A stretch of DNA of 64,000 nucleotides, from positions 1 to 64,000 of the forward strand of contig JADLBL010000012.1 in NCBI GenBank assembly GCA_020847735.1. Direction: 5' to 3'. The notes under the pieces were generated by a model. It did no database searches, was not told the DNA's origin, and saw only the letters and a program-made list of their open reading frames with translations. A program made the position numbers and the translations under genes. Below are positions 13,306 through 22,249 of this stretch, one piece after another. Position 1 is the stretch's first letter; every line of letters begins with the position of its first letter. This stretch comes from Candidatus Eisenbacteria bacterium. GTDB lineage: Bacteria; Eisenbacteria; RBG-16-71-46.

Positions 13306-13381
13306 GGGCGATTAGCTCAGCTGGTAGAGCACTTGCTCGACAAGCAAGGGGTCACTGGTTCAAGTCCAGTATCGCCCACCA
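13306..13381 (+). tRNA. tRNA-Val (anticodon GAC), CCA encoded
   Basis: All four arms fold: acceptor GGGCGAT with ATCGCCC, D-arm GCTC/GAGC, anticodon stem CTTGC/GCAAG, a five-base variable loop and T-stem ACTGG/CCAGT around TTCAAGT. Discriminator A and CCA (13379-13381) are encoded. The anticodon at 13339-13341 is GAC, reading GUC/GUU. The seven-base anticodon loop TCGACAA puts C, not the nearly universal U, at position 33, and its first and last bases could pair to make a tighter loop. It has its own promoter and is followed by a terminator-like hairpin before thrS. Confidence 0.92.
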
Positions 13382-13473: not shown

Positions 13474-15249
13474 ATGTCCTCGAGCGCCGCCGCATCGGGC
13501 CCGGACCTCTCGCAGTACCCCGGCGGGGAGGCGCTCTATCGGCTGCGCCACTCGGCCGCGCACGTGCTCGCGACCGCCGTCACCGAACTGTTTCCCGAGG
13601 TGAAGGTCGCCGGCGGGCCGCCGGTGGAGAACGGCTTCTACTACGATTTCGCCCGGCCGACCCCGTTCACCCCCGAGGACCTCGAGCGGATCGAGGCGCG
13701 CATGCGCGAGATCGTCGCGCTCGACCAGCCCTTCGAGTACGCCGAGATCAGCCGCGAGGACGCGCGCCGGCTGTGGGAGGGAAGAGCCGAGAAGTACAAG
13801 CTCCACTTCCTCTCGCAGATTCCCGCGGACGCGAAGATCACCACCTATCGAAACGGCGATTTTCTCGACCTGTGCCGCGGCCCGCACGTCGCGAGCACCG
13901 GAACGCTGAAGGCGTTCAAGCTGACGCACGTCGCCGGCGCCTACTGGCTCGGCTCCGAGAAGAACGAGATGCTGCAGCGCATCTACGGAACCGCGTTCGC
14001 GACCCAGGCGGAGCTCGACGAGCACCTCAAGCGGATCGAGGAGTCGCTCAAGCGCGACCATCGCCGGCTCGGACGCGAGCTCGACCTGTTCTCGATCCAC
14101 GAGGAGGTCGGAGCGGGGCTGGTCCACTGGCATCCGCGGCTCGGCATGGTGCGACACGTGCTCGAGGGGTTCTGGAAGGAGGAGCACCTCAAGGCCGGCT
14201 ACCAGCTCGTCTACACGCCGCACCTCGCGAGCGAGAAGCTGTTCACGATCTCCGGGCACCTCGAGAACTACGCCGACATCATGTATTCGCCCATGCTCAT
14301 CGACGAGCAGGCGTACCGCGCCAAGCCGATGAACTGCCCGATGCACATCATGATCTACAAGAGCCGCAAGCACTCGTACCGCGAGCTGCCGGTGCGCTTC
14401 GCCGAGCTGGGCACCGTGTACCGCTACGAGCGCAGCGGCGTGCTGCACGGCATGGAGCGCGTGCGCGGCTTCACCCAGGACGACTCGCACATCTTCTGCA
14501 CGCCCGACCAGCTGCAGTCCGAGATCGTCGGCGTGCTGAAGCTCATGGACCTGCTGCTCACCACCTGCGGCTACGAATACCGCTGCTACCTCGCCACGCG
14601 GCCGGCCGACAAGTACCTGGGCAGCGACGCCGAGTGGACCTTCGCCACCGAGGCGCTGCGGCAGGCGCTCGAGAGCCGCGGCCTGCCCTACGAGGTGGAC
14701 GAGGGCGGCGGCGCCTTCTACGCGCCCAAGATCGACGTCAAGCTGCGCGACGCGCTCGGTCGCGAATGGCAGTGCCCGACGATCCAGGTGGACCTGAACC
14801 TGCCGAAGCGCTTCGGCGTCGTGTACACCGCGCCCGACGGCCAGGAGCACGAAGTCATCATGCTGCACCGCGCGCTCTACGGCTCGCTCGAACGCTTCGT
14901 CGGCATCTTCATCGAGCACACCGGCGCCGAGTTCCCGGTCTGGGTGGCGCCGCTTCAGGCGATGGTGATCCCCGTGCACCCGAAGGCGCACGAGTACGCG
15001 CAGCAGACCGCGGCGCTGTTCGCCGCCGCCGGGGTGCGCGTCGAGGTGGACACCCGCGACGAGAAGCTCGGGGCCAAGATCCGCGACGCCGAGCTGCAGA
15101 AGGTGCCGTACATGGTCGTGGTCGGCCCGCGTGACGCCGAAGCCGGCACGTGCGCGCCGCGACGCAAGGGGCAGGGCGACCTCGGCACGATGCCACGCGA
15201 ACAATTCGTTTCGCGCATCACGCAGGAGATTCGGGACCGCGTCCACTGA
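13474..15249 (+). CDS. thrS: Threonine-tRNA ligase lacking the TGS domain
   Basis: The enzyme charges tRNA-Thr. At 591 residues it is about 50 shorter than usual because it starts directly at the editing domain (LYRLRHSAAHVLATAV), without the N-terminal TGS domain. Editing residues HSAAH and DLCRGPH are present. The class II core shows zinc ligands in MNCPMHI and in EHEVIMLHRALYG, motif 2 in YERSGVLHGMERVRGFTQDD, and the anticodon-binding domain at the C-terminus. The ATG at 13474 has AAAGGG about 6 nt upstream; the preceding frame codes for tRNA and hairpin, so no longer protein is possible. Unlike many genomes it is separated from infC by a reverse-strand gene. Confidence 0.95.
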   Translation: MSSSAAASGPDLSQYPGGEALYRLRHSAAHVLATAVTELFPEVKVAGGPPVENGFYYDFARPTPFTPEDLERIEARMREIVALDQPFEYAEISREDARRLWEGRAEKYKLHFLSQIPADAKITTYRNGDFLDLCRGPHVASTGTLKAFKLTHVAGAYWLGSEKNEMLQRIYGTAFATQAELDEHLKRIEESLKRDHRRLGRELDLFSIHEEVGAGLVHWHPRLGMVRHVLEGFWKEEHLKAGYQLVYTPHLASEKLFTISGHLENYADIMYSPMLIDEQAYRAKPMNCPMHIMIYKSRKHSYRELPVRFAELGTVYRYERSGVLHGMERVRGFTQDDSHIFCTPDQLQSEIVGVLKLMDLLLTTCGYEYRCYLATRPADKYLGSDAEWTFATEALRQALESRGLPYEVDEGGGAFYAPKIDVKLRDALGREWQCPTIQVDLNLPKRFGVVYTAPDGQEHEVIMLHRALYGSLERFVGIFIEHTGAEFPVWVAPLQAMVIPVHPKAHEYAQQTAALFAAAGVRVEVDTRDEKLGAKIRDAELQKVPYMVVVGPRDAEAGTCAPRRKGQGDLGTMPREQFVSRITQEIRDRVH

Positions 15250-15307: not shown

Positions 15308-15997
15308 CTACTCGAAGCGGTAGCCGATCGACAGCGGCACGAAGTCGAGCGCGAGGCCTTCGCGCTCCATTCGCGTCCAGCCCGCGGAGACGAACAGCCG
15401 CTCCCGCCGGCGCACGGTGAAGTCGTAGCGCAGGCCGGCGGTCCACGCCGCGCCCCAGCCCGACTGGCCGGGCACGTCCACGGGTTCCCCGGTCACGCCG
15501 TCGTAGAACCGCAGGCTCCCGTAACCGGAAGCGAAGTAGCCGTACCCGCCGCCGCCCTCGAGCCACAGGTCGCGCCACGCGCGCAGGCCGGCGGAGGCGA
15601 GTCCTTCGATCGCGTGTCCACCCGAGATCGCGTCGTAGTTCGCTCCCGGCGCGACGACGACCTGGCCGTTCGAGGTGCTGTAGCTGCCGAGATAGCCGTT
15701 GGCGCCGTTGGGCAGGTCGAGGTAGGCGAGACGGACCGCGAAGCGCAGCCGCGGCGCCGCCTTCGCGACGAGCCCGCCCCCGAAGGCGACGCCCGCGTTG
15801 TAGCGGTCGCTCACCTCGCGCGGCGACTGCATCCACGAGACGCCCGCTTCGAGCGTCGCGTACAACCACGGCGGCAGGAATCGTGTGCTGTCCCGTTTCG
15901 CACCGACCGCCTCACCGAGGTCCACTCCCGAGGCGCGGACTTCTCCGCCGGGCGCGAACCCCAGCAGCAGGACGATGAGCAGTGCGTTTCGAGTCAT
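15308..15997 (-). CDS. Outer-membrane beta-barrel protein
   Basis: The 229-residue protein has a signal peptide (NALLIVLLLGFAPGGEVRASG) and then alternating amphipathic strands rich in Gly, Tyr and Trp, such as LYATLEAGVSWMQS, LRFAVRLAYLDLP, LWLEGGGGYGYFASGYGSL, AWTAGLRYDFTV and RLFVSAGWTRME. It ends in an aromatic strand (PLSIGYRFE), as small outer-membrane barrels of the OmpW/OmpA-like superfamily do. The ATG at 15997 has GGAGGAG five bases upstream. Function unknown; it interrupts the common thrS-infC gene order. Confidence 0.72.
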   Translation of the reverse strand: MTRNALLIVLLLGFAPGGEVRASGVDLGEAVGAKRDSTRFLPPWLYATLEAGVSWMQSPREVSDRYNAGVAFGGGLVAKAAPRLRFAVRLAYLDLPNGANGYLGSYSTSNGQVVVAPGANYDAISGGHAIEGLASAGLRAWRDLWLEGGGGYGYFASGYGSLRFYDGVTGEPVDVPGQSGWGAAWTAGLRYDFTVRRRERLFVSAGWTRMEREGLALDFVPLSIGYRFE

Positions 15998-16144: not shown

Positions 16145-16174
16145 TTGCGGTCCGGGCGGGCCTTCCTTTACTAT
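16145..16174 (+). promoter_or_regulatory. Promoter of the infC-rpmI-rplT-pheST operon
   Basis: TTGCGG at 16145-16150, an 18-nt spacer and TACTAT at 16169-16174. The predicted start near 16181 gives a leader of about 210 nt before infC, containing a strong intrinsic terminator. The 15998-16392 gap holds only this promoter, the leader and the divergent 5' end of the beta-barrel gene. Confidence 0.62.
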
Positions 16175-16297
16175 GCCGCGCGTTCGAAAGCAGAAGCCCC
16201 GCGCTTCTCACCCCAGCGGACCTTCGAGGTCTCGCGACGGGTCGGGCCGCAACCACATCATCGCGGCCGCGGAAGGTTCCGGCACGTCCATCCGACA

Positions 16298-16339
16298 CGC
16301 CGGGCGGGGAGGCTGCATCCCGCCCGGCGTTCTTTTTTT
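16298..16339 (+). terminator. Leader terminator (probable attenuator) upstream of infC
   Basis: A perfect 11-bp GC stem (16298-16308 with 16319-16329, loop of ten) is followed by TTCTTTTTTT. This is the strongest intrinsic terminator in the window, yet it lies downstream of the operon promoter and upstream of the first gene. In Bacillus and others the infC-rpmI-rplT operon is controlled by L20-dependent premature termination in the leader, so the same logic is likely. No alternative antiterminator was worked out. Confidence 0.75.
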
Positions 16340-16392
16340 CGGTCGCGGAACGCATGCGGGCCACGGTTCCACAGGCGACGGAGGACAGCGCC

Positions 16393-16995
16393 ATTACCAT
16401 TCCCGGCAAGCAGCAGGAAGCTCGCGTCAACGAGCGCATCCGCGTTCCCCAGGTCCGCGTGATCGGCGACGACGGCTCGCAGATCGGCATCCTCACGACC
16501 CGCGAGGCCCTGGCGATGGCCCAGTCGAAGGGACTGGACCTGGTCGAGGTGGCGGCCGCCTCGCGTCCGCCCGTGTGCCGCATCATGGACTACGGAAAGT
16601 TCAAGTACGAACAGAACCTCCGGGCACGCAAGGCTCGCAAGAACCAGCACCAGATGCAGCTGAAGGAAGTCAAGATGCGTCCCAAGATCGAGGACCACGA
16701 CTACAACTTCAAGCTGCGTCACGCGCGAGAGTTCCTGGCGGAGCGGGACAAGGTGAAGTTCACGATCACTTTCCGCGGCCGCGAAATGGCCCGCATGGAG
16801 CTGGGCTACAAGATCATCGAGCAGATCCTGGTGGACCTCGCCGAGATCGCGGTCGTCGAGACGCCCGCGCGGGCGGAGGGCCGCACGCTGACCATGGTCG
16901 TGTCGCCGAAGCCGATCACGGGTGGCAAGCCGGCCGGCAAGGCCGCGTCGTCGGACGCGGGCAAGCCGGCGCCCGACGCCAGCGCGGCGTCCTGA
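16393..16995 (+). CDS. infC: Translation initiation factor IF-3, probable AUU start
   Basis: IF-3 binds the 30S subunit, prevents premature 50S joining and proofreads initiator tRNA and start codon. The N-domain begins EARVNERIRVPQVRVIG, the linker is rich in Lys/Arg, and the C-domain carries KEVKMRPKIEDHDY and VKFTITFRGREMARMELG. The tail after about residue 175 is low-complexity (Gly/Ala/Lys/Ser). The start is taken at ATT (16393) because GGAGG lies exactly 8 nt upstream and it gives the family-typical N-terminus; E. coli infC uses AUU for autoregulation by IF-3. An in-frame ATG at 16354 has only a poor ribosome site beside the terminator. First gene of the rpmI-rplT-pheST operon. Confidence 0.93.
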   Translation: MTIPGKQQEARVNERIRVPQVRVIGDDGSQIGILTTREALAMAQSKGLDLVEVAAASRPPVCRIMDYGKFKYEQNLRARKARKNQHQMQLKEVKMRPKIEDHDYNFKLRHAREFLAERDKVKFTITFRGREMARMELGYKIIEQILVDLAEIAVVETPARAEGRTLTMVVSPKPITGGKPAGKAASSDAGKPAPDASAAS

Positions 16996-17297: not shown

Positions 17298-17654
17298 ATG
17301 CCTCGTTCCAAGACCGTCGTTCCCGGCCGCGCGCGCCGGAAGAAGGTTCTCAAGGCCGCGAAGGGCAACTTCGGCGGCCGCCGCAAGCTGTACAAGTCGG
17401 CGCTCCAGACCGTGCAGCGCGCGGGCCAGTTCGCCTGGGAACACCGCCGGCTGAAGAAGCGCGATTTCCGCCGCCTGTGGATCACGCGCATCAACGCGGC
17501 CGCGCGCCTGAACGGACTTTCGTACAGCACGCTCATCGCCGGCCTCAAGAAGGCGAATGTCGAAGTGAACCGCAAGCTGCTCGCCGACCTCGCGGTTCGC
17601 GACGCGGGTGCGTTCGCGAAGCTCGCGGAGGTGGCGAAGGGCGCGACCGCGTAG
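17298..17654 (+). CDS. rplT: 50S ribosomal protein L20
   Basis: The 118-residue basic protein matches L20 in full: long N-terminal helix [20 protein letters not shown], then [20 protein letters not shown] and [14 protein letters not shown]20 is needed early in 50S assembly and in many bacteria represses its own operon by binding leader or intergenic RNA that mimics its 23S site. The leader terminator at 16298 is the natural place for that control here. GGAGGAATAAGAAC provides the ribosome site. Confidence 0.98.
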
Positions 17655-17666
17655 CGGTCGGACCGC

Positions 17667-18809
17667 ATGTCCGACGCGCAACTCGCATCCATCGCCGCCG
17701 ACTGGAGCGAGGCCGATCCGGCCACGCTCACGGCCGGCCATGCCGCCCGGCTCGCCGAATTGCGGCAGCTCGACGGCGCACTCGCCGCGCTCTACGAGCG
17801 CGGCGCCGCGGTGCTGGCCGGGGCGCCGGACGCGAACGCCCTGCGCGAGCGCCATACGGCGCTGCTCGGTCGCGAGCGCGGGATCGTGACGCAGGCGCTC
17901 GGCGGACTGCCGGGCCTGCCGCCCGAACAGCGCAGGACGCGCGGCAGGGGCCTGAACCTCGTCAAGCGCTGGCTCGGCGAGGTCCACGACGCCCGCCGCG
18001 ACGCGCTCGAACGGGAGCGCGAGTCCGCGGGCGCGCTCGACGTGACGCTGCCGGGCCGCCGCCCCTGGACGGGCCGCCCGCACGTCCTCGCCCAGGTGCG
18101 CGACGACCTGCTCGACCTGTTCCACGGCCTCGGCTTCTCCGTCTACACCAGTCCCGAGGTCGAACTCGACGAGTACAACTTCGGCAAGCTCAACTTCGCG
18201 CCGGACCATCCGGCGCGCGACGCGCACGACACCTACTTCGTGAGTCCGGACGTCGTGCTGCGCACGCACACGTCGCCCGGCTGGGTGCGCGCGATGGAGG
18301 AGCGAAAGCCGCCGCTGCGGCTCGTGTTCCCCGGCCGCGTCTATCGCGCCGAGGCGACCGACGCGAGCCACATGGACCAGTTCCACCAGATCGACGGCCT
18401 GTTCGTGGACCGGAACGTCTCGATGGCCGACCTCAAGGCGACCCTGAACACCTTCGCGCGCGCCATCTATCGCGCCGACCTTCCCACGCGCATCGTTCCC
18501 ATCTACTTTCCCTTCGTCGAGCCGGGAATGCAGATGGACGTGCAGTGCGTCCGCTGCGCGGGCTCCGGCCACACGACCGACGCCGAGGGGGAGAAGCGCT
18601 GCCCGGTGTGCAAGGGCACGAAGTGGGTCGAGGTCCTGGGCGCCGGAATGGTGCACCCGAACGTCTTCCGGGCGGTCGGCCTCGATCCCGAGCAGTGGAC
18701 GGGCTTCGCCTTCGGCATGGGACTGGAACGCATCGCCATGGGCCGTCACGGCATCCCCGAGATCCGGCTGTTCCTCGAGAACGACGTGCGGTTCCTGCGT
18801 CAGTTCTAG
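17667..18809 (+). CDS. pheS: Phenylalanine-tRNA ligase alpha subunit
   Basis: The catalytic subunit of the alpha2-beta2 PheRS. The 380-residue protein has an N-terminal coiled coil (about residues 1-95) and the class II catalytic core with motif 2 around PPLRLVFPGRVYRAEATDASH and motif 3 in AFGMGLERIAMGRHGIPEIR. Substrate-site segments FHQIDGLFVD and FPFVEPGMQMDV are typical. An insert with two CxxC pairs (CVRCAG and CPVCKG, near residues 295-315) looks zinc-ribbon-like. It begins 12 nt after rplT and is followed 18 nt later by pheT. Confidence 0.96.
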   Translation: MSDAQLASIAADWSEADPATLTAGHAARLAELRQLDGALAALYERGAAVLAGAPDANALRERHTALLGRERGIVTQALGGLPGLPPEQRRTRGRGLNLVKRWLGEVHDARRDALERERESAGALDVTLPGRRPWTGRPHVLAQVRDDLLDLFHGLGFSVYTSPEVELDEYNFGKLNFAPDHPARDAHDTYFVSPDVVLRTHTSPGWVRAMEERKPPLRLVFPGRVYRAEATDASHMDQFHQIDGLFVDRNVSMADLKATLNTFARAIYRADLPTRIVPIYFPFVEPGMQMDVQCVRCAGSGHTTDAEGEKRCPVCKGTKWVEVLGAGMVHPNVFRAVGLDPEQWTGFAFGMGLERIAMGRHGIPEIRLFLENDVRFLRQF

Positions 18810-18827
18810 GCCGCGGAAAGGTTCTCC

Positions 18828-21269
18828 ATGAAGCTCCCGATCTCGTGGCTGCGCCAGTGGGTCGAGGTGGATGCGTCGCCCGAGGGCGTGGCCGAGGCGC
18901 TGACCACGCGCGGCTTCTACGTCGAAGGGCTCGAACAGCATGGCCGCCGCTATCCCGGCATCGTCGTCGCGAAGGTGCTCGAGGCGGACAAGCACCCCAA
19001 CGCCGACAAGCTCAAGCTGTGCCGCGTGGAGGGCGGCGCCGGCGAACTGCGCATCGTCTGCGGCGCGCCCAACGTGACGGCCGGCATGATCGTGCCGCTC
19101 GCCACGCTCGGAACCGTCATGCCCGGCGGGCTCGTCATCAAGGCGGCGAAGATTCGCGGCGAGGAGAGCCAGGGCATGCTCTGCTCGGGGCGCGAGCTCG
19201 GGCTGTCCGAGGACCACAGCGGCATTCTCGACCTGCGCGAGATGCTGCCGCAGGCGCAGCTCGAAATCGGCCGTCCCTTCGACGAATACCTGCCCGAGCC
19301 GGATTCGGTGCTCGAGGTGGAGATCCCCTTCAACCGGCCCGACGGGATGGGCGTCGTCGGCCTCGCGCGCGAGGTGAAGGCGGCCCTCGGCGGGAACTGG
19401 ACGCCGGCTGCGAAGTCGCTGCGCTCCGCCCGGGCCGGCGCGGGAGAGACGTTCGACCTCGTCATCGAGGATCCCGAAGGTTGTCCCAGCTATCTCGCGC
19501 AGGCGGTGCTCGGCGTCCGGGTCGGTCCCTCGCCGGACTGGCTCGTTCGCCGGCTCGAGGCGATGGGCCAGCGCCCGATCAACAACGTCGTGGACCTGAC
19601 GAACCTCGTGCTGTTCGAGTTCGGCCAGCCGCTGCACGCGTTCGATCTCGACCGCCTGTCGGGTCCGGCGATTCACGTGCGTCGCGCGCGCCAGGGCGAG
19701 TCGCTGGTGACGCTCGACGGCCGGTCGCGCGAGCTGTCGGGCGAGCATCTCGTCATCGCCGACCGCGAGCGACCGGTGGCGATCGCGGGCGTGATGGGCG
19801 GCGCGGACTCCGAGGTCACCGCCAGCACGACCAGCCTCCTGCTCGAGTGCGCATGGTTCGATCCGCGGCGCGTCCGCCGCGGCGCCCGTCTGCTCGGGCT
19901 TTCGACCGAGGCCAGCAAACGCTACGAGCGCGGCGTGGATCCGGGCGTCGGCGCGGCGGCGGCCGCGCGCTTCCTGGCGCTCCTGCTGGAACTGTGCCCG
20001 GGCGCGGCGCTCGGGCACTCGCGGCTTCGTCACACCGCGCCGACCCAGCGCGAGCTGCGGCTTCGCCCCGCGCGCTGCTCCCGGCTGATCGGCCTTCCCT
20101 TCACCGGCGAGCGCTGCCAGGAACTGCTGGCGTCCCTGGAGTTCGGCGTCCGCCGCGGGACCGACGACCTGATCGTCACGGTCCCGACCTGGCGACCCGA
20201 CGTGACGCTCGAGGACGATCTGGTCGAGGAGGTCGCGCGCGCTCACGGCTACGACCGGATCCCCGAGACGCCGCCGGGCACGGGCGGCAGCTTCGCCCGG
20301 CGGACGCCGCGCGAGCGGGCGGTGCGCCGCGCGCGCGAGGCGATGCAGGGGCTGGGATTCGACGAGGCGTGGACGGGCTCGCTCGTCTCGGAGGCCGAGG
20401 CGCTCGCCTGCCGGGATCTGCTCGGAGACGACGCGCCGCTCGTTCACCTCAGCAATCCGCTCAGCCGCGAAAGCGAGGTCCTGCGCCCGAACCCGCTCGC
20501 CGGAATGCTGCGCGCTCTCGCGCACAACCTGCGCCAGGGAGCTTCCGCCGTCCGGCTGTACGAGGTCGGTGCGGGCTTTCTCGACCGGGGAGGGCGTCTG
20601 CCCGAGGAGCGCCTGCTGCTCGTGGCGCTCGCGACCGGACCGCGCTGGCGCCACGCGCACGACCCGAAGCCGGGCGCGCCCGCGCACGCCTACGACAGCG
20701 GCGCGGCGCTCGACTTCTTCGACGCGAAAGGGCTCTGGGAAGCCTGGCTGGGCGAGATGCGCGTTGACTCGCCCGAATGGCGAGCCTATTCTGCGGCCGG
20801 TTGGAAACCCGGTGCCAGTGTGGAAGTTGCGGTCGGAGCTTCACGCATTGCTTGGGCCGGGACGCTGGGCCCGTCGCTGCTTCGCACGTGGGAGATCGAA
20901 GCGCCCGTCCAGGCTTTCGTGGCGACGCTCGATCCGCTCGTCGAAGGCGTTTCGCAACCGGTCCGCGCCCAGGTGCCCGGCCGATTCCCGCCGGTGCGTC
21001 GCGACCTCGCTTTCTTCGTCCCGCGAAGCGTGACGCACGCGCAGTTGCATCACAGCCTCGTCGGCGCGGCCGGCGGGGCGCTGAGCTGGCTCGAACTGTT
21101 CGACGTTTACGAGGGCCCCGGAACTCCGCAGGGAATGAAGAGCCTGGCGTTCGCGATGCAGCTGCACTCGCCCGGTCGAACGCTCGCGGAAGCCGAAGTC
21201 CTGCAGATCCAGGCCCGCATGGTGGCGGCCGTCGCGAGGGATTGCGGCGGTCAACTGAGGGAGCAATGA
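18828..21269 (+). CDS. pheT: Phenylalanine-tRNA ligase beta subunit
   Basis: At 813 residues it has the full domain set: EMAP-II-like tRNA-binding domain (about 40-150; VLEADKHPNADKLKLCRVEG), B3/B4 editing domain with the class-typical NNVVDLTNLVLFEFGQPLHAFD, B5 domain, pseudo-catalytic class II fold, and C-terminal ferredoxin-like anticodon-binding domain (FPPVRRDLAFFVP). It edits Tyr-tRNA-Phe and positions the tRNA. The ATG follows GAAAGG. Its stop overlaps the next start (ATGA). Confidence 0.97.
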   Translation: MKLPISWLRQWVEVDASPEGVAEALTTRGFYVEGLEQHGRRYPGIVVAKVLEADKHPNADKLKLCRVEGGAGELRIVCGAPNVTAGMIVPLATLGTVMPGGLVIKAAKIRGEESQGMLCSGRELGLSEDHSGILDLREMLPQAQLEIGRPFDEYLPEPDSVLEVEIPFNRPDGMGVVGLAREVKAALGGNWTPAAKSLRSARAGAGETFDLVIEDPEGCPSYLAQAVLGVRVGPSPDWLVRRLEAMGQRPINNVVDLTNLVLFEFGQPLHAFDLDRLSGPAIHVRRARQGESLVTLDGRSRELSGEHLVIADRERPVAIAGVMGGADSEVTASTTSLLLECAWFDPRRVRRGARLLGLSTEASKRYERGVDPGVGAAAAARFLALLLELCPGAALGHSRLRHTAPTQRELRLRPARCSRLIGLPFTGERCQELLASLEFGVRRGTDDLIVTVPTWRPDVTLEDDLVEEVARAHGYDRIPETPPGTGGSFARRTPRERAVRRAREAMQGLGFDEAWTGSLVSEAEALACRDLLGDDAPLVHLSNPLSRESEVLRPNPLAGMLRALAHNLRQGASAVRLYEVGAGFLDRGGRLPEERLLLVALATGPRWRHAHDPKPGAPAHAYDSGAALDFFDAKGLWEAWLGEMRVDSPEWRAYSAAGWKPGASVEVAVGASRIAWAGTLGPSLLRTWEIEAPVQAFVATLDPLVEGVSQPVRAQVPGRFPPVRRDLAFFVPRSVTHAQLHHSLVGAAGGALSWLELFDVYEGPGTPQGMKSLAFAMQLHSPGRTLAEAEVLQIQARMVAAVARDCGGQLREQ

Positions 21270-22042: not shown

Positions 22043-22249
22043 CGGCGTTCCGGAGCATGGAAGTCCCTGCCCTGTTGGTGATGCGTCCGAGTTCTTGAAC
22101 CAACACTGCAGCAAAGGGTGTCGCGATGCCGGCGACGTCCGTCAGCAGCCGCAAGGTCGCGCGACGGACCGACCCGGCTCCAGCGGCGCCCACCCTGATT
22201 CCAGGGCTCAAAGAACGAGGGCCACACGGCAGCGGCGGGGAGCCTTTTT
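22043..22249 (+). ncRNA. ssrS: 6S RNA candidate (regulator of sigma-70 RNA polymerase)
   Basis: The roughly 200-nt region between zapA and rny has no coding frame worth keeping and shows 6S-like features. GGCGTTCC (22043-22050) pairs with GGGGAGCC (22237-22244), closing the molecule just before a T5 tract. Next to the central bubble is the segment AAGTCCCTGCCCTGTTGG. The opposing strand and apical arm carry GAGTTCTTGAACCAACAC, very like proteobacterial 6S arms where GTTGG pairs with CCAAC. CCCTGATTCCAGGG forms the small hairpin of the opposite bubble side. Downstream-of-zapA is the classic ssrS location. Ends are approximate. Confidence 0.72.

Follow-up and report, generated by a model that had tools for sequence, protein, structure and literature searches.

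Known systems and the locus under study

In Bacillus subtilis, infC, rpmI and rplT lie downstream of an L20 leader RNA (RF00558), which is built from an AAG-N-AGAAGC hairpin, a CACC...GG stem and a terminator and can adopt two exclusive folds (PMC6097659; PMC10931766). The binding site of ribosomal protein L20 was mapped to the H1/H2 junction of this RNA (PMC6097659), and binding of L20 favours the terminator (PMC10931766). The leader was described as narrowly distributed and as occurring in Firmicutes only (PMC6097659). Translation of infC in B. subtilis starts at an ATT codon (PMC6097659). ATT is also the start codon of infC in Escherichia coli, and ATC is that of the often misannotated infC in Streptomyces (PMC5472188). 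A precedent for repression by IF3 of its own translation via the start codon comes from E. coli (cited in PMC5472188).

Here, we analysed a stretch of 64,000 nucleotides from an uncultured Candidatus Eisenbacteria bacterium (assembly GCA_020847735.1, contig JADLBL010000012.1, positions 1 to 64,000), referred to as the window. Its infC locus shares with B. subtilis the leader elements listed above, two predicted exclusive folds, the downstream genes infC-rpmI-rplT and the ATT start. In contrast to B. subtilis, the leader is GC-rich, falls below the Rfam cut-off, has a longer GC terminator and stems from the class that contains the Eisenbacteria, and pheS and a probable pheT follow in the cluster. 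With infC of E. coli the locus has in common an AUU start behind a good Shine-Dalgarno sequence, whereas L20 of E. coli represses translation of rpmI-rplT via a pseudoknot and infC is not controlled (PMC10931766). The non-canonical start is likewise shared with Streptomyces, for whose infC, unlike in the window, no L20 leader is described. A leader candidate from Deltaproteobacteria (Eckert and Weinberg 2020) resembles the window leader in that it is proposed to bind L20 and contains an AA dimer as well as two G-C pairs in succession, but its scaffold is different (PMC7247131).

Genomic context

The gene infC is located at 16393..16995 on the forward strand (Pfam IF3_N and IF3_C) and is present as a single copy in the 3.66-Mb genome (a single match in G000). 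It is followed on the same strand by rpmI for ribosomal protein L35 (17019..17216, Pfam Ribosomal_L35p), rplT for ribosomal protein L20, the proposed ligand of the leader (17298..17654, Pfam Ribosomal_L20), and pheS (17667-18809, Pfam tRNA-synt_2d). The next open reading frame in the list (18828-21269, forward strand) was read as pheT solely on the basis of where it lies and of its translation. Judging from the spacing, pheS and the probable pheT (17667..21269) are probably part of the same transcript as infC. A 6S RNA gene (SsrS) was detected downstream of the cluster at 22061-22245 on the forward strand (Rfam RF00013, 55.7 bits).

Upstream of the locus, thrS is encoded on the forward strand and its open reading frame ends at 15249; a tRNA-Val(gac) gene lies further 5' at 13306. 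The region between thrS and infC holds an open reading frame on the reverse strand (15308-15997) for a protein of 229 aa whose N-terminus resembles a signal peptide and which has no Pfam match. According to the list of open reading frames, no forward-strand gene is present between the end of thrS and the leader.

In seven loci of the class (L035, L036, L038, L039, L041, L042 and L046), a tRNA gene, tRNA-Val GAC by sequence, adjoins the leader on its 5' side. Such a tRNA gene directly 5' of the leader was also observed outside the class (L168, L176). No separate promoter was found at the tRNA-adjoining leaders in the class loci tested, and infC may be co-transcribed with the upstream tRNA gene.

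Start codon of infC

The Shine-Dalgarno sequence GGAGG (16380..16384), which is kept in relatives, is separated by 8 nt from an ATT codon (16393..16395) in the reading frame of IF3. This arrangement had been noted in a first-pass annotation and was confirmed by comparison with related genomes. infC was found in 55 of the 59 genomes searched, and the window's family comprises 18 genomes with a readable infC, the window included. In all 18, the Shine-Dalgarno sequence is followed after 7–8 nt by ATT (17 genomes) or ATC (one genome) at the homologous position. Automatic scoring of 43 relatives from the class yielded ATT in 20, ATC in 19, ATA in 2 and GTG in 2 cases; the two GTG calls (L025 and L030) each have an ATC immediately 5' of the GTG and one of the ATA calls (L026) is doubtful, so that about 40 of the 43 clearly have a non-canonical start at this position. 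ATT is typical of the window's family, and ATC, ATT or ATA occur elsewhere in the class.

The sole ATG in frame, at 16354, lies 13 codons 5' of the ATT, and automatic gene callers would pick it. If IF3 started there, the protein would carry a 13-residue N-terminal extension and the ATT would be an ordinary isoleucine codon. However, this ATG lacks a Shine-Dalgarno sequence and directly follows the U tract of the terminator, and it is present in 0 of the 17 other family members. The pattern that the first-pass annotation had named as speaking against its reading, a conserved ATG at this position combined with a missing ATT, was looked for in the relatives, and the reverse was found. In eight relatives from the class (L022, L024, L027, L029, L031, L033, L041 and L042), an in-frame stop codon (TGA or TAG) is located a few codons 5' of the ATC or ATA, and in L020 and L023 the stretch examined holds no canonical start codon. 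ATG, GTG or TTG starts are therefore excluded or very poor in these relatives. We rejected ATG 16354 as the start codon and regard a start at this position as exceedingly unlikely. A second ATT at 16399 was also rejected, as it is 14 nt away from the Shine-Dalgarno sequence and conserved in close relatives only.

Non-AUG starts of infC also dominate among the 80 named loci from many phyla and are found in most of the phyla sampled. Taken alone, such a start is ordinary. Since gene callers refuse ATT and ATC as start codons, infC is likely to be misannotated in these genomes.

Identity and fold of the leader RNA

The leader extends over positions 16182..16340 on the forward strand, based on Rfam family RF00558 and on a covariance model built in this study (R1). 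The match to the L20 leader family RF00558 obtained with cmscan (16182-16341) has a score of 28.2 bits and an E-value of 0.0014, which is below the gathering score of 58.7. The cut-off is a threshold of the database and not a biological feature; we therefore regard the leader as the same kind of switch, without membership certified by Rfam. Other leaders also miss the cut-off, e.g. L066 from the Bacillota (31.1 bits) and L073 from the Selenomonadaceae (56.8 bits), and the relatives L025 and L036 score higher than the window (38 bits).

The element comprises an unpaired AAG (16188..16190, invariant in alignments A1 and A3), a hairpin P1 (AGAAGC/GCUUCU, 16192..16208, loop CCCGC) and a stem P2 (16210..16242), which pairs ACCC with GGGU and, in its inner part, GCGGACC with GGUC-U-CGC and contains invariant consecutive C-G pairs. 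The core AAG-N-AGAAGC-loop-GCUUCU-CACC...GGGU was found in nearly all leaders of the class. P1 is invariant within the family, and its covariation hence stems from more distant leaders: across phyla, two-sided changes were observed in 5 of its 6 pairs, with 100% of cells paired. For the entire fold, including P2, an alignment of 38 diverse leaders showed 98.1% of cells paired and 50 two-sided compensatory cells, compared to 10.1 in shuffled alignments; with the partner slid by 1–3 columns, no more than 7 were counted. Fitting of this alignment to the model favours the structure, P1 nonetheless being anchored by its invariant flanks.

Model R1 was built from the cores of the 18 family members (alignment A3), since P2 was misaligned when MAFFT was applied to the cores of the whole class. 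In the window's own genome it yields a single match (16185-16245, 72.5 bits). Matches were obtained in 37 of 47 genomes of the class, and in nearly all of them the infC leader ranks first. Two weak matches away from infC (L010 301-361 and L003 2292-2339) were attributed to chance.

Besides infC, the operon contains pheS and a probable pheT, and pheST operons can be controlled by attenuators or T-boxes. This favours the alternative that the leader senses a signal other than L20, namely IF3 or, via a ribosome-dependent attenuator, the status of tRNA or PheRS. However, no T-box and no leader family besides L20 was scored by Rfam over the leader, and the conserved core, AAG-P1-CACC-P2, corresponds to that of an L20 leader, so that we consider such sensing highly improbable. 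Weak Rfam matches of Scr4115, Streptomyces-metK and ctRNA over the leader are at chance level.

The two consecutive C-G pairs and the AA of the AAG are practically invariant. The elements by which L20 is bound in both leader and rRNA have been named as an AA dimer together with two G-C pairs (PMC7247131). By analogy, the invariant AAG and the two C-G pairs are likely the elements contacted by L20. A search for mimicry of 23S rRNA helices H40/H41, using a 23S segment of the relative G024, yielded no convincing match; no 23S rRNA was found in the window's own genome. In another family member, the 23S rRNA match (G012:C22:1-827) covers just 205 positions of the model but is 827 bases long, and an intron or intervening sequence may thus be inserted there.

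Promoter, terminator and alternative pairing

A sigma70-type promoter is located at 16145..16174 on the forward strand. It consists of a -35 element TTGCGG (16145-16150), an 18-nt spacer and a -10 element TACTAT (16169-16174), and ends 13 nt 5' of the AAG. A scan for strict consensus promoters did not list it. The pattern TTG-N3, a spacer of 16–19 nt and TA-N3-T was found at this position in 31 of 39 class leaders, compared to 0.45 expected from shuffled sequences.

At its 3' end, the leader carries an intrinsic terminator (16297..16340) composed of a GC-rich 13-bp hairpin (16297-16330) followed by TCTTTTTTTC. The fold of this strand has a free energy of -30.3 kcal/mol (z = -5.3). In all 18 family leaders a strong hairpin is followed by a T-rich tail, so that the terminator noted in the first-pass annotation is not a chance feature.

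A strong terminator immediately 5' of a gene can insulate that gene, and it could be constitutive or serve an upstream gene, while infC would have a promoter of its own 3' of the terminator and no control by L20. The gene layout rules out the second function, since no forward-strand gene lies between thrS and the leader: thrS, the nearest one, ends 1 kb earlier, and a reverse-strand gene is located in between. Insulation is also at odds with the conserved promoter 5' of the L20 element and with the conservation of the element, its distance from the terminator and its pairing with it. This alternative is very unlikely in our view.

The predicted antiterminator connects both parts of the leader. 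Its 5' half (16190..16202), identified in the minimum-energy fold before the 3' arm of the terminator, consists of the segments GCAG and CCCCGC from P1 and its loop. The 3' half (16304..16316) is the 5' arm of the terminator (GCGGGG at 16304-16309, CUGC at 16313-16316), as supported by a comparison of cognate and non-cognate duplexes. When the window leader is folded before the 3' arm of the terminator, the antiterminator is the minimum-energy structure (-62.0 kcal/mol vs -53.5 kcal/mol with P1 enforced). Pairing of P1 with the terminator was predicted at this stage in 17 of the 18 family leaders, the window included, and folding of the full-length leaders yielded P1 together with the terminator in 16 of 18. 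In L007, for example, the exchange pairing can join AGAAGCCCCGC from the 5' side and loop of P1 to GCGGGGUUUCU in the terminator 5' arm.

Cognate duplexes are stronger than non-cognate ones within the family (mean -23.0 vs -21.6 kcal/mol, p=2e-4), with one genome per genus (p=0.0036) and in 20 other leaders, Bacillota among them (p=5e-5), the test being partly inflated by relatedness. The antiterminator duplex of the window was not stronger than base-shuffled controls (z = -0.3). Compensatory changes between the P1 loop and the terminator were found in L008, L014 and L017. In the latter two, the loop reads CUCCGC and the terminator GCGGAG, and the new A is left bulged or mismatched within the terminator stem. 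As the matched change fits this stem badly, it argues for selection on the antiterminator. In lineages such as L035-L042, the pairing involves the 3' arm of P1 instead. The predicted folds thus support a terminator that is exclusive with an alternative structure.

Five leaders of family f5 (L020, L021, L023, L027 and L029) have a nearly invariant L20 core, and no terminator was found before infC by the criteria used; the output mechanism may be different in this lineage. In the sister leaders L022, L024, L031 and L033, a long hairpin is followed by only a weak U tract. The f5 leaders favour the view that, at least in lineages devoid of a U tract, leader-bound L20 mainly affects how infC is translated or how stable the RNA is, rather than termination. 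Against this, the window and its whole family possess a strong terminator in exchange pairing with P1, and we assign this alternative a very small probability.

Taken together, comparison of the sequences established the start codon, the conserved fold, the promoter, the terminator and the exclusive pairings. The leader is of the Bacillus type, in line with the first-pass annotation, based on its sequence, covarying fold, gene context, promoter, terminator and the exchange between terminator and antiterminator.

Proposed control of the operon

We consider it highly likely, based on the comparison with relatives, that the infC-rpmI-rplT(-pheST) operon is subject to two controls, L20-dependent attenuation and AUU-limited translation of IF3. 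Transcription from the promoter at 16145-16174 would yield an RNA that opens with the Bacillus-type L20-binding element (AAG, P1 and P2). At low levels of L20, P1 would pair through its 5' side and loop with the 5' arm of the terminator, and this antiterminator would allow RNA polymerase to read through into infC, rpmI and rplT. L20 in excess of its rRNA sites would bind the leader and hold P1 and P2, the terminator (16297-16340) would form and transcription would stop. On read-through transcripts, IF3 would be translated from the AUU at 16393, a codon against which IF3 discriminates, and would in this way limit its own synthesis. For L20 binding, termination in the cell and feedback by IF3, we infer the behaviour known from E. 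coli and B. subtilis.

The two layers suggested earlier, translational for infC and transcriptional for the operon, are thus supported by the conserved AUU/AUC start and a leader that resembles an L20 attenuator. The hint that both signals at one locus are unusual did not hold: infC of B. subtilis has both an ATT start and an L20 attenuator (PMC6097659), and hence the combination is not new.

Distribution and implications

infC is located downstream of the leader across the class, which includes Candidatus Eisenbacteria SS_bin_28; the leader sequences of L040 and L052 are identical. Outside the class, R1 matches infC leaders of Abyssobacteria (L057), Hydrogenedentota (L120), Krumholzibacteriota (L123), Aquicultor (L081) and Bacillota, and more weakly those of Coriobacteriia (L096) and an Actinomycetota bin (L112). 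Among the loci scanned, only two Bacilli exceeded the Rfam cut-off for RF00558. A second model (R2), applied to a sample of 385 genomes, gave matches in 30 genomes outside the class. The 26 loci with E<=0.0012 all have infC directly downstream, nearly all with a non-AUG start; four weaker matches (E 0.002 to 0.018) do not precede infC and were dismissed as chance.

The leader precedes infC in the class and in other phyla, and the range of Firmicutes only (PMC6097659) is therefore too narrow. Compared to the open-access literature, the distribution of the leader and the evidence for exchange pairing are new. These results suggest that L20 attenuation is a widespread and maybe old way to balance IF3, L35 and L20, with several phyla missed by the Rfam cut-off. 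It is quite possible, if slightly short of an even chance in our estimate, that the combination of L20 attenuator and AUU-type start of infC is old, was inherited widely among bacteria and is no invention of the Firmicutes, and that some lineages of the class kept the L20-binding core, lost the terminator and moved to a different expression platform.
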